A DNA stretch of 64,000 nt from Spiroplasma taiwanense CT-1 (lineage in GTDB: Bacteria; Bacillota_I; Bacilli_A; Mycoplasmatales; Mycoplasmataceae): the NCBI RefSeq assembly GCF_000439435.1, contig NC_021846.1, positions 1 to 64,000 on the forward strand. Direction: 5' to 3'. Shown here piece after piece: positions 30,670 through 40,616 of the stretch. Both the position numbers and the translations under genes were made by a program. Under the pieces are notes generated by a model. It saw only the letters and a program-made list of their open reading frames with translations. It searched no databases and was not told the origin of the DNA. Numbering within the stretch: position 1 is the stretch's first letter; each line of letters opens with the position of its first letter.

Positions 30670-32001
30670 ATGAAATTATATGATTCATTGACAACAGAAC
30701 TTAAAATGATAGATGTACCTAAGGTTTGCATTTACACTTGTGGACCGACTGTCTATGACTATATTCATATTGGTAATGCAAGACCATTAATTTTGACAGA
30801 TTTAATTATCAAATACTTAGAACATAGAGAAATTAAATATAAATATCTGTTAAATATTACAGATATTGATGACAAAATTATAAAAAAGTCAATGGAAATG
30901 AATATTTCAGAAGAAAATCTTTCTCAAAAATATACAAAAGCTTTTTTAGAAGATTTAGAAGCTTTAAATATAACAAAACCAACGGATATTATCCCAATTT
31001 CTTCAAAAATAAATGAAATTTTAAAATTTATTAATGAGTTGATTGAAAAAGATTACGCATATGAAATAAAAGGGAATGTTTATTTTAATATTGCACGTTG
31101 GGAAAAAAAATATGGAAATCTTTCTAAACAGAATATCAATCAATTAGAGATTGGGAATAGAGTAGAAGAGGACTTAAATAAAAAAAACCCACAAGATTTT
31201 GTTTTATGAAAGAAAACATCAGAAGGGAAAAAGTGACTTTCAAAATGAAGCCTGGGTAGACCAGGATGACATACTGAATGTGCACTTTTAATTGATAACT
31301 ACTTTAAAGCCCCTATAGATATTCATGTAGGAGGAATTGACTTAAAATTTCCACATCATGAAAATGAACGAATTCAATATTTAGCAAAAAATTTGAGAGA
31401 ATTAAGCACAGTTTGATTACATAATGGGCATGTTTCTCTGGAAAATACGAAAATGTCAAAATCACTTAATAATACAATCTTAGTCAGAGATTTTATCAAT
31501 GATTATGGAATTAATGTTTTGAGATATATATTTTTAAATTCAAATTATAAACAGCCATTAAATATAACTAAAGAATTAATTTTACAATCATCTGAATGAG
31601 TTGAAAAAGTTGATAATTTATTAAGAACAATTAATTGATTAACAAAAATCGGAGAAGTTATATTAACTAATAAAACTCCAATTGATGATAATTTTAATTC
31701 GCATAAATATATTACTCGTTTTAGAGCTTTTATTAAAGATGATTTAAATACACCTTTAATAATATCCTTAATAAACGAAATGACTAAAAACATAAATAAA
31801 CAGTTAAAAAATAAAATGGTGGATTTGACTTATATAAAATTATTGACACTTTTAAAAATTTTAGGTTTTTCTTTTGAAATACCTAATTTATCAAAAAATG
31901 ATGTAGAAATGATAAGAAAATGAAATGAATTAAAATTGGCAAAGAATTTTACTAAAGCTGATAAAATAAGAGAAATATTAAAAAAAGGAAAAATCATATA
32001 G
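30670..32001 (+). CDS. cysS: Cysteinyl-tRNA synthetase
   Basis: CysRS is a class I synthetase. The opening LYDSLTTEL.. and [21 protein letters not shown] hold the zinc-ligand Cys and the HIGH motif in the HIGN form. KMSKSLNN lies around residue 263. Many TGA codons between 31207 and 31635 read as Trp (e.g. in RPGWHTECA). Length 443 is slightly short for the family, with a reduced C-terminus. GGGGAGG precedes the ATG. rlmB follows with no gap; the mini-RNase III gene found between them in Bacillus is absent. Confidence 0.96.
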
Positions 32002-32721
32002 ATGAGAAATTATATTTATGGTAAAAAAATAGTTGAAAATGTTATAAAAAATTTTAGCAATCAAATTGTTAAAATTTATATTTTAAAAGGACATTCTTTT
32101 GAACAAGAAATATATTCAATTATTAAAAAAAATAATATAAAGTGATCTTCTGTTGAAAAAGGAAATTTTTTGAAAATAATAAAGGAAAAAATTAAACATC
32201 AAGGATATATTGCAGAGGTTAAAGAGTACCAGTATTGCGAACTTTCAAATATATACAATAATTCAAAGGAAAGACAAGTTATTTTAATTATAGATCAATT
32301 ACAAGATCCACAAAATTTTGGGGCTATAATTAGAACTGCAAGTCTTTTTAATGTTGATGGTATTATTATTCAAGAAAATAATCAAGTAAAAGTAACACCA
32401 GCAGTAGTAAAGGCGTCTGTGGGAACAATTTACAACATACCAATTGTTAAAGTATCAAATTTAAAAGATGCTATAAATTCACTAAAAAATCAAGGATTTT
32501 GAATTTATAGTTCTTTTTTGGGGAAAGATAGCAAATCAATCAATGAAATAAATTTTGATAAAAAAACTGCTATCGTTATTGGAAATGAAGCAACAGGAAT
32601 TTCAAAAAAAATTCTCAGTGTTTCAGATTTTAATTTTAAAATTGAAACAAGCAATGTTATAGATTCATTAAATGTATCTGTAGCAACAGGAATAATACTT
32701 TTTAAAATATCTGCTATCTAA
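32002..32721 (+). CDS. rlmB: TrmH/RlmB-type 23S rRNA 2'-O-methyltransferase
   Basis: This is a SPOUT-class RNA ribose methyltransferase. The conserved motifs are LDQLQDPQNFGAIIRTA-type (here LIIDQLQDPQNFGAIIRTA), VIGNEATGISKKIL, and the knot segment SLNVSVATGI. The order cysS-rlmB-sigH-rpmG-secE-nusG matches Bacillus, supporting the RlmB call (Gm2251-type). The ATG follows the cysS stop directly. TGA codons at 32143 and 32500 read as Trp. Length 239 is normal. Confidence 0.9.
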
Positions 32722-32740: not shown

Positions 32741-33347
32741 ATGAACTTTTCAGTTGAAAATATCATTTATGTAATATCAAAAAAATTATTTAAAGAGCAA
32801 GCAGAAAAAGTAGAAATTCAAATGCTTTCAAGAATAATCGTAAGTATAATTAATAAAGAATTTGTAAAAATGGACTTTTTAAGGATTGATAAAGAGGATT
32901 TAATAACAAATGTTTATTTAGCTTTATGTGAAGTAAAAAAAGATTTAATCCACAATTAAAAGTGCCATTAATTGCATATTCTTGTTTTATAGTTAAGCAT
33001 AGAATATTAGATTATGTAAGGTATCTAAAACGTAAGAAAAATTAATTACATTACAACTTGTAAATAGTTACAGGGGAAATCTAATAAATCAACAAAGAAC
33101 AGCTTTAGAAAGAGATAGTGACGAATATTCAATTGAGTTATATAATGATAACTTAGAATATAATAATTCACTTAAAATTATTGAATTATTTTTTGAAACT
33201 AAACCTACTAAGAGGGAAAAATCCATTATAAAATTATTAACACAAAACCTTAATAAAATTCAAATAATGAAATTATTAAATATTTCAAGATATGAAATAA
33301 CAAAATGTCAAAAAAAATTAAAAAACTATTTTAATAGTTTATTATAG
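32741..33347 (+). pseudogene. SigH-like RNA polymerase sigma factor, two frameshifts
   Basis: The gene lies between rlmB and rpmG, exactly where Bacillus carries sigH. The first frame gives 72 residues (MNFSVENIIYVI..) and stops after a run of seven A (32935-32941). Restoring one A continues with FNPQLKVPLIAYSCFIVKHR and LDYVRYLKRK, a sigma-70 region 2 pattern. A second missing A (run 33037-33041) then opens the region 4-like helix-turn-helix end (TKREKSIIKLLTQ..). With both As restored it would be 202 residues. It is either decayed or rescued by transcriptional slippage. Confidence 0.7.
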
Positions 33348-33397: not shown

Positions 33398-33556
33398 ATG
33401 TCACAAATTAAAAAAAAAATAATCTTGGTTTGCACGGAATGCCTTTCAAGGAATTATTCAATTCAGAAAAGTAAAATTTCGCAACGAGAAAGATTAGAAA
33501 TTAAAAAATATTGTAAAACATGTAATGAACATGTGTTACACAAGGAGACGAGATAA
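33398..33556 (+). CDS. rpmG: 50S ribosomal protein L33
   Basis: The 52-residue frame has the zinc-type L33 pattern: CTEC near residue 12 and CKTC near 40, with RNYSIQKS between. It is preceded by TATAAT at 33361-33366 and a GAGAG site. secE starts two bases after the stop. The frame was too short for automated listing but is certain from motif and position before secE-nusG. Confidence 0.93.
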
Positions 33557-33558
33557 TT

Positions 33559-34008
33559 ATGAAAAGCAATGATAAAAATGAAATCTTAAAAGATGATAGC
33601 TTAAACAATCTTTCTGACAAGGATAAAAGAGCAAAACAAAGAAAATTAAAATTGGAAACTAAAATAGAAAAAAAGGCTTCCAAAGTGGCTATTAAACTTG
33701 AGAGAAAAAAAGAAATTAAAGAACTTTTCAATAAATTTGAAGGTCATGATGGAACACAAGAAGGAAAAGTAAAAGCAGCTAAAGATAAAAAAATAAAGAA
33801 ACATAAAAATAAAGTTGACTATAAACTAACTTTTAAAGAAGCACCAGTTAAGTTTTTAAAAGAGATAAATAAAATTAAATGGTCTTCAAGGCAGAATTTA
33901 GGTACAAAATTTTTATGAGTTATTATATTTATTTTTATATTTGGAGCTTTCTTTTTCTTAGTTGATTGAGGATTACAAAGTTTATTTGTAGTAATTAAGA
34001 TTATTTAG
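33559..34008 (+). CDS. secE: Preprotein translocase subunit SecE with N-terminal extension
   Basis: SecE clamps SecY in the translocation channel. The C-terminal ~55 residues are the SecE core: FLKEINKIKWSSRQNL followed by one membrane segment of about 25 residues. The preceding ~90 residues are a very Lys/Glu-rich, probably helical, cytoplasmic extension not present in the ~60-residue Bacillus protein. TGA codons in the membrane segment read as Trp. Total 149 residues. nusG follows after 12 bases, the universal pair. Confidence 0.92.
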
Positions 34009-34020
34009 TAAGGAGTTTTT

Positions 34021-34644
34021 ATGGAACAAGAATTTATTTTAGAAGAAGAACTAGCCTCTTATAGGGGACAATGATTTGTTTTAAATTGTAATAGTGGTCA
34101 TGAAGATAGAGTAAGAGCAGATTTATTGCAAAAAATTGAAACATCAGGGTTGGAAGATAGAATATTTGATATTAGAATTTCAAAGGGGCCTATAGTTGGA
34201 AGTAATAATAAAGTCACTGAAAAAAATAAGTTTCCTGGTTATCTTTTTATAAATATGAATATGACAGATGAAACTTGATTTATTATTCGTAATACACCAG
34301 GTGTAACTGGTTTTATCGGGTCTTCTGGTAAAGGTGCAAAACCTTTGCCTTTAACAAGTGAAGAAGTTTCAAGAATGCTAGAACAAAATAATCAATCTTC
34401 AAAAAACAAGAAAAATTCAAAAGGAAATGCTAATCAACCAAAAAAAGAAAAAATTTTGTATGAAGCAAATTTTAATTCCAAAGATGTTGTTCTTGTTAAA
34501 GAGGGGCCGTTTGTCGGTACTGAAGGACAAGTTATAGAAATGGACTTGGAAAAAGGAATTGCGATTGTAAATATTGAATTATTTGGAAGGATTACACCAA
34601 CAGAATTTGAATTTTCAAATTTAGAAATTGCATATAAAGGATAA
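34021..34644 (+). CDS. nusG: Transcription termination/antitermination factor NusG
   Basis: NusG couples RNA polymerase to Rho or ribosomes. The N-terminal NGN domain begins WFVLNCNSGHEDRV (Trp from TGA) and includes FPGYLFINM. The C-terminal KOW domain is KEGPFVGTEGQVIEMD. Between them, about residues 118-145, is a Ser/Asn/Lys-rich low-complexity linker longer than in Bacillus. Length 207. AAGGAG precedes ATG 34021. A terminator follows two bases after the stop. Confidence 0.95.
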
Positions 34645-36515: not shown

Positions 36516-37541
36516 ATGAGAGCAATAATAGTAAGTAAAAATAAAGAAAAAATTGTTGAACTAATTGAAAAAGAAAATATAACTAAAATAAATAATGATG
36601 AAGTTATTGTTAAAACATTGTATTGTAGTTTATGTCATAGTGATTTAACAACTGCTTCTGGAATCTTAGGAGATTAAACAGGAAAAACTGTGGGGCATGA
36701 ATCAGTGGGAGAAATTATTAAGTTAGGGAATGAGGTAACAAATTTAAAAATTGGTGATATTGTGGCATTTCCTGCTGGACTACATAATGCATGTGGAAAA
36801 TGTTATTTTTGTATAAATGAAGAGGAAGTATTTTGTGAAAATGCCACTTTTACAAGTTCAAGAGGTTATGGAACTATGCAAGATGAATGTATTGAGAAAG
36901 CCAGTTTTTGTGTAAAGGTTCCAGATGGAGTTAATTTAGCTCAGGCTTGCGTTATAACATGTGCAGGCTTAACAGTATATAAGGGTTTGAAAATAGCACA
37001 ACCGAAACAAGGAGATTTTGTAGCAATTTATTGTATTGGTGGTTTGGGAAATATTGCAATTGAGTATGCAAAAAATATTTTTAAGACAAAAGTAATTGCA
37101 ATAGGAAGCAATAAAAAAAGTTTAGAAATTGCCAAAGAAAAAGGAGCTGATTATATAATAAATTGGAAAGAAGAAAATGTTGATTATGCAATAAAAAAAA
37201 TAACAAATAATGGAGTAGCGGTTGCTTTGGTAACAAGTTCAACAAGTGATCAATTTGAAATGGCTTATAGAAATTTAAAATCTGTTGGAAAATTAATTGC
37301 AATTGGATTACCAAAGGCTAAACTTGAAATTGATATAATTGATTTAGTTTTAACAGCAAAACAAATTATTGGAACCTTAGTTGGTACAAGAAAAGATCTT
37401 GAAGAATCACTAGATTATTTTTCAAAAGGATTAATTAATCCTGATTTAGTTGTTGAACCTTTAATTAAAGCACCTGAATACTTTAAATTGATGGAAGAAA
37501 ATAAACTACATACAAGAATAGTTTTTGATTTTAATAAATAA
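36516..37541 (+). pseudogene. Zinc-dependent alcohol dehydrogenase with in-frame stop
   Basis: The gene reads as a medium-chain alcohol dehydrogenase of about 341 residues, broken by TAA at 36675 (codon 54) in LGD-stop-TGKTVGHESVG. Family members have a Lys or similar residue there, so a single AAA-to-TAA change would explain it. Otherwise it is intact: catalytic zinc Cys in SLCHSDL, GHE, four structural-zinc cysteines in the NACGKCYFC..C segment, and a Rossmann GGLGN. A restart at GTG 36690 would lack the catalytic Cys. GGAGGT precedes ATG 36516. Oxidation or reduction of small alcohols/aldehydes is the family role. Confidence 0.85.
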
Positions 37542-38818: not shown

Positions 38819-39590
38819 ATAAAATGATGATTTTCAGATTATGACGGAACAATAAGTGTTCATTAAAATGAATTTTTAGAATCAAAAGATTTAGAATTTA
38901 TTCATGATTGAAAAAAGGAGAATAAATTTATTATAGCAACAGGAAGATCAAAAAAAGAAGCTATAGAAATATTAAAAAGAAATAATTTAGATTTTGATTA
39001 TTTAATTACAAATAATGGAGCTATTTTATATGATAAAAACCAAAATATATTAATTGAAAAACAATTAATATGGAAGTAAGAAAAATTTTGCTTGAAAAAA
39101 TTGATTTATTAGAAGGAATTTGTGGAATAAAAATTGCAACAGCAAATGATAGATTAACATTATCAGGTATTGAAGAAAAACATAAAATTGAAAATTCCTT
39201 TATGTTTGATTTTTGGTATGATGTTAAGAATCAGTATAAAGAACTTAGAAATCTTATAGTAGAAGAAAAAACATTAAATAATATAGCATTTTATTCTTAT
39301 GAAGAAAATATGGAATATATTAGAAGTTTATTCCAAAATATACCGGGAATAAAAATATTAAGAACAGCACATATAGTTTTAAAAATAATGAATGAAGAAG
39401 TTTCAAAAAAATTGGTGTAGATTATATTCAAAAAGAAAATTTAATAAGAAATGAAGATATTTTAACTAGTGGAGATGGAGAAAATGATGTTGAAATGCTA
39501 AAAGCATATAAAAATTCATTTGCAATGAAAAGTGAAAAGAAACTTGCAAAAAATCAGCAAAATATCTTATTGACAGAGTTAGAGATATAA
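38819..39590 (+). pseudogene. Decayed tandem copy of the HAD phosphatase
   Basis: The first bases repeat the start of the previous gene almost exactly, but the ATG is now ATA (38819-38821). A TAA at 38864 replaces a conserved-length codon. A frameshift near 39066 and a single-A loss in a seven-A run (39405-39411) follow. Piecing frames together recovers FSDYDGT, ATGR, the cap domain, EEVSKK and GDGENDVEML, so every catalytic motif was once present. It is clearly non-functional as it stands. Confidence 0.88.
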
Positions 39591-39635
39591 AAAAATATTT
39601 ATAATAATTTAATTAAATAGGAGGTTTAATAATTA

Positions 39636-40616
<981 letters not shown>

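Follow-up and report, generated by a model that had tools for sequence, protein, structure and literature searches.

A sigma factor gene broken at two A-runs in the sigH slot of Spiroplasma taiwanense, and a putative competence-type promoter box in its relatives

Introduction

The usual picture of Mollicutes is of bacteria with a single main sigma factor and hardly any regulons. Among the described systems closest to the locus analyzed here, the competence-type SigH of Staphylococcus aureus and Lactobacillus sakei drives com genes, in L. sakei dprA too, and can be cryptic (PMC3486894, PMC3364868). In staphylococci and lactobacilli the sigH locus is kept while the sequence is extremely diverged (PMC3486894, PMC3364868), and in the Bacillus gene order the sigH slot lies between rlmB and rpmG-secE-nusG (PMC3364868). 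In streptococci, comEA, dprA and ssbB carry the SigX box, a T-rich -25 with TACGAATA, some 19-25 nt ahead of their ATG (PMC6001120), and in S. mutans SigX also has a link to the control of bacteriocins (PMC4497675). In Mycoplasma genitalium, sigma-20 (MG428) controls recA, ruvA and ruvB (PMC9262362).

Here, we analyzed a sigma-70-family gene in S. taiwanense, in a window of 64,000 nt, by which we mean the whole stretch of DNA under study. Like SigH of S. aureus and L. sakei, which is about 200 aa long with very low between-species similarity, the slot sigma is of that size and lies in the same chromosomal slot, the cysS-nusG block. Unlike them, it is found in wall-less Mollicutes, its box is of the CGAT and not the CGAAT type, its predicted regulon includes recA and ruvAB, it reaches no family-cut-off score, and it is a pseudogene in S. 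taiwanense. The CGAT box has the layout of the ComX/SigX cin-box, a T-rich -25 followed by a -10 with a CGA core, with [A/G]NCGAT[A/T] in Spiroplasma compared with TACGAATA as the ComX consensus; ComX genes lie elsewhere than in the sigH slot. The bacteriocin link of S. mutans SigX has its counterpart in a C39 exporter and a double-glycine-type peptide gene that carry the box in some species. Sigma-20, likened here by its described targets, is also a mollicute alternative sigma with recA, ruvA and ruvB, but its known role is antigenic variation, and comE and dprA are not among the targets listed (PMC9262362). A literature search of partial coverage found no description of the slot sigma or of the CGAT box in Spiroplasma. 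We propose that the gene is probably a recently inactivated alternative sigma factor of the SigH slot which, where intact, acts in a ComX-like manner and drives a small competence/recombination regulon through the CGAT box.

Results

A sigma-70-family gene with two frame breaks

The S. taiwanense genome comprises 1.086 Mb in two contigs and is of the Spiroplasma type, and reading frames were taken under code 4; when 3 kb from the 11-kb contig was searched against plasmids, no match was found. The gene occupies positions 32741-33347 (+), as judged by frame reading, by the matches of its relatives and by profile matches. It follows the conserved upstream neighbors cysS (30670-32001) and rlmB (32002-32721, intact) and precedes the conserved downstream neighbor rpmG (33398-33556), then secE (33559-34008) and nusG (34021-34644), all on the + strand. 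It has no single open reading frame: two frame breaks, both in the same direction and each at an A-run, split it along the path 0 -> 2 -> 1. The first segment (32741-32959, +), in frame 0 from the start codon to the frame-0 stop, encodes the N-terminus and the start of region 2, and the first break lies at an A7 run (32935-32941, +). The middle segment (32937-33045, +), in frame 2, holds the remainder of region 2 (..YSCFIVKHRILDYVRYLKRKK) and ends at a TAA (33043-33045), with the second break at an A5 run (33037-33041, +). The last segment (33045-33347, +), in frame 1, encodes the linker and a region-4-like HTH up to a TAG (33345-33347). Apart from the two stops that end the segments in front of this TAG, the joined path has no others, and the original prediction of a sigma-70 gene between rlmB and rpmG, split at A-runs with a stop-free joined frame, is thus borne out by the frames, the profile matches and homologues at the same locus in relatives. 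The genome has one other sigma-70 region-2 match, in a 453-aa open frame that presumably encodes the main sigma factor.

The slot is occupied in all genus genomes searched

A search of relatives showed that the rlmB-rpmG slot is filled in 20/20 genus genomes, and that the gene is intact, at about 205 aa, in 17 of them; the absence of any gene at this position, which would have spoken against the original prediction, was not observed. With the sigma gene as query, 16 of the 20 genomes match, and in nearly all of these the match lies at this locus, near 33 kb of the chromosome, so the sigma-70 match is not due to chance. The remaining four carry a diverged homologue in the same slot, an open frame of 207-211 aa, recovered by the profile at E 1e-53 or better (all four being among the seeds of that profile). 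Outside the genus, a slot sigma is present in at least three further genera, with proteins of 228-230 aa in three genomes (G044, G069, G083) and more diverged ones in three others (G160, G192, G204). At the order level, matches are weak (E 1e-3, ORFs of about 280 aa). In another genome (G152, L248), the slot holds a 248-aa protein of an unrecognised family.

The slot sigma is broken in three genomes, independently: in S. taiwanense, in G016, where region 4 was lost through a deletion, and in G017, where a T-run differs by one base (T7, compared with T8 in the sisters G015 and G002). The G015 and G017 genes differ by 10 synonymous and 6 non-synonymous codon changes, which shows that the gene was under constraint until recently. 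The regulon genes tested in G017 are intact, and its T-run break may reflect phase variation, very recent loss or error.

Which kind of sigma factor

We searched the joined product (with X at both junctions) against profile models. It matches TIGR02937 (sigma70-ECF) over residues 26-196 with E 7e-7, below the curated cut-off, and Pfam Sigma70_r2 with E 0.04. Among 18 members of the slot family, 17 match TIGR02937 (best E 2.2e-12; two among the matches listed lie below the curated cut-off) and 16 match Sigma70_r2, in agreement with membership of the sigma-70 family. The spore_sigH model TIGR02859 gives E 0.038 for L010 and is matched by 3/18 members, with a best E of 0.0041; the scores do not reach the curated cut-off of TIGR02859 or of the PRK08295 models. 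In region 2, SigI-type models outscore spore_sigH, and a profile search of PDB chains ranks SigI6 and SigI1 first, with a SigH also among the best matches. Sequence comparison places the slot sigma in the sigma-70 family, without a clear subfamily.

The AlphaFold model of the slot sigma has a mean pLDDT of 84 and a pTM of 0.49. Its best Foldseek match is B. subtilis SigH (9a4r, E 3.5e-4), and essentially all the matches listed are sigma factors. VIA-align yields Z 7-8, values that helical folds reach by chance, and the finding of a fold with region 2 and region 4 therefore leans on the Foldseek list. The position is that of SigH in the 20 genus genomes and in further genera, and a weak SigH score would fit the extreme divergence published for SigH proteins at their conserved locus. 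The original prediction had called the gene SigH at its ancestral locus; its positional part stands, while sequence alone does not single out SigH. The data support filing the gene as SigH-slot and SigH-like, a membership given by position and not by sequence score.

A CGAT box at a fixed distance from competence and recombination genes

In most of the genus, comEC adjoins rpsT and holA and lies behind a gene of about 185 aa in the comEA position, which has no Pfam match and is assigned as comEA by position only. About 20 nt before the start codon of this gene, we found a T-tract followed by CGAT. Within the genus, CGAT occurs 17-30 nt before the start in 51/59 upstream regions of recA, ruvA-ruvB and the comEA-position gene with comEC (recA 19/20, ruvA 17/20, comEA position 15/19), compared with 0/267 other genes from four stretches and 0/84 same-genome controls (slot genes and slot neighbors). 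The corresponding Fisher p-values, about 1e-51 and 1e-30, overstate independence because the sequences compared are related, although the intergenic DNA surrounding the box has otherwise diverged. Alignment on the C of the box reveals a T-rich center at -14 (87% T), a purine at -2 (86%) and an A at +10 (78%), a pattern that fits a -10 element from which transcription starts 6-7 nt further on. The late competence genes carry a -10 box with a CGA core and a T-rich -25, the core being CGAT compared with CGAATA; variants are CGAA(T) in G001 and G011 and CGTT in G010. Count-based analysis showed no genome-wide motif enrichment, as a reversed-pattern control gave equal raw counts; the case for the box therefore rests on its recurrence at a fixed position before orthologous genes.

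We also inspected recA leaders in other genera of the family. CGAT is present in three g3 genomes, all bearing the slot sigma, and [A/G]CGTT in three genomes with a more diverged slot sigma, while neither was found in the recA leaders of 20 genomes in which no slot-sigma match was convincing. Genera in which no slot sigma was detected have another conserved recA-leader element (ACCTTAATAATTTATTGGAGG in g2 and a TCCTAAT type in g6, g7 and g11; L224, L228-L232 and others), possibly the shifted box of an undetected diverged sigma. Among the genera with a differing recA-leader box are Mycoplasma mycoides- and Mesoplasma-like ones.

Besides the comE operon, a pattern search placed the box before recA and ruvA, before an ssb paralogue and a C39 exporter, and before genes for a SocA/Panacea-domain protein and a double-glycine-type peptide. 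The boxed ssb is followed by dprA (Pfam E 1.8e-23) in an ssb-dprA operon, and the C39 peptide exporter is preceded by a CGAT box in some species. In S. poulsonii in culture, transcripts of ruvA, ruvB, recR, recU and the comEC family increase together (PMC5874924), which lends independent expression support to the regulon. Control of recA and ruvAB by sigma-20 in M. genitalium (PMC9262362) is a further independent line of support. In G007 (L150), the box precedes a gene for a 94-aa double-glycine-leader peptide that resembles a bacteriocin or pheromone and may be a substrate for the C39 exporter that carries the box in relatives. In several species, the interval from the end of gap to pgk holds a 170-aa SocA/Panacea-domain gene that carries a CGAT box (L122-L127, L252, L254).

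Decay of the predicted regulon with the sigma gene

In S. taiwanense, the comE operon is missing from the rpsT-holA locus, ruvA has an internal stop, and ruvB has a stop and a shift; the C39 exporter, the Panacea gene and another box gene are split, and recA is intact. In G016, the sigma gene, both comE genes, ruvA, ruvB and recA are all broken, with the Panacea gene and another box gene intact, while in G017 the sigma gene is broken and the regulon is intact as far as tested, a combination that counts against the proposed link. An intact ruvA and a long comEC frame are found in each of the 17 genomes whose sigma is intact. The association of ruvA state with sigma state is modest (Fisher p = 0.016); ruvA state was judged by alignment, as most Spiroplasma RuvA proteins escape the Pfam RuvA_N model. 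The S. taiwanense genome, with 65 annotated pseudogenes published (PMC5726471), appears rich in pseudogenes generally, and co-decay of the regulon is hence partly expected. Elsewhere in the window, an alcohol dehydrogenase-like gene (36516-37541) is split into two frames of 53 and 283 aa, a second copy of the neighboring HAD-type hydrolase gene (38819-39600) is decayed, and the gene after that copy (39641-40613) is broken over three frames.

Discussion

That both breaks of the sigma gene fall at A-runs raises the question of whether the gene is dead, and the original prediction had left room for recent loss or for continued use by slippage. Slippage during transcription or translation at both A-runs, restoring the protein in a fraction of cases, would account for breaks of the same direction in a joined frame that is free of stops, and the first site, GTA AAA AAA, is a possible -1 slippery heptamer. 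However, such a site is ordinary in this window, whose intact genes contain 67 in-frame A_AAA_AAA heptamers and 318 A5, 79 A7, 38 A8 and 7 A9 runs; the second site is only an A5, two independent slips would be required, and most of the predicted targets are themselves dead in S. taiwanense. The A-run census together with regulon decay led us to reject slippage, which we consider very improbable. It is only marginally less improbable that the gene is intact in the organism and was broken by sequencing or assembly error: homopolymer miscalls are a classic error, and the G017 break is likewise a single-base T-run difference from a sister, but nearly all of the 57-59 conserved window genes per comparison are free of frameshifts, the breaks cluster in dispensable genes, and run errors explain neither the internal stop of ruvA, the stop and shift of ruvB nor the comE deletion, in a species with a published pseudogene complement. 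On this pattern of breaks, we reject error as a general cause in this genome. The gene is thus a recent pseudogene and not a slippage gene. Under neutral simulation, a frame stays free of stops with a probability of 0.11 after 0.05 substitutions/site and of 0.02 after 0.1, and the stop-free joined frame therefore suggests that the loss lies within roughly 0.05-0.1 substitutions per site. In this lineage, the sigma has not evolved faster than RlmB (distance ratios 1.53 and 2.0), so that no long relaxed period is seen. The claim of recent loss is supported by the joined frame and the simulation, and by the breakage of many predicted targets.

For the intact system, two further explanations concern the box and the descent of the gene. 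The CGAT box could be bound by a different regulator or serve the main sigma as a second promoter element, with the slot sigma controlling something else; the presence of the box before the SocA/Panacea-domain gene and others would be in line with this, but its layout matches the ComX -10 box with a T-rich -25, it sits where a -10 would lie given a very short leader, and it tracks the slot sigma at the family level, making this explanation unlikely. Somewhat more weight, though still a minor share, goes to the slot gene being a SigI- or ECF-type sigma that replaced SigH and does not descend from it, as the ranking of SigI-type models in region 2 and of SigI6 and SigI1 among PDB chains would suggest. 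Against this stand its exact position in the cysS-rlmB-[sigma]-rpmG-secE-nusG block, the top Foldseek match to SigH and the extreme divergence of SigH proteins at a conserved locus (PMC3486894, PMC3364868). Position, Foldseek ranking and promoter box support the SigH/ComX assignment, and we infer that the slot sigma reads the CGAT box, with competence or recombination as the outcome.

According to the ComX-like model, the promoters to which an intact slot sigma guides RNA polymerase would have a T-tract some 14 nt ahead of a [A/G]NCGAT[A/T] -10 box, and transcription is predicted to begin about 10 nt past the C of that box. The genes turned on in this way would be the comEA-position gene and comEC for DNA uptake, ssb-dprA for the handling of single strands, recA for strand exchange and ruvAB for branch migration; some species would add a peptide exporter. 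In S. taiwanense, the sigma gene has become a pseudogene and most of the predicted regulon has decayed alongside it, recA remaining. A bolder version, which we advance tentatively and with somewhat less than even confidence, is that Spiroplasma and its sister genera possess a complete minimal ComX-type regulon (comE, ssb-dprA, recA, ruvAB and peptide export) and are naturally transformable, and that single-base changes in homopolymers repeatedly switch or kill the sigma, as in S. taiwanense and G017.

If the proposed function is true, a conserved sigma of the SigH slot, with its box at comEC, dprA-ssb, recA and ruvAB, would place DNA uptake and recombination under a regulated programme, and the natural competence of spiroplasmas would become directly testable. 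The dead sigma of S. taiwanense and that of G016, with the same gene set decayed, would then constitute a natural knock-out showing how such a programme is lost.
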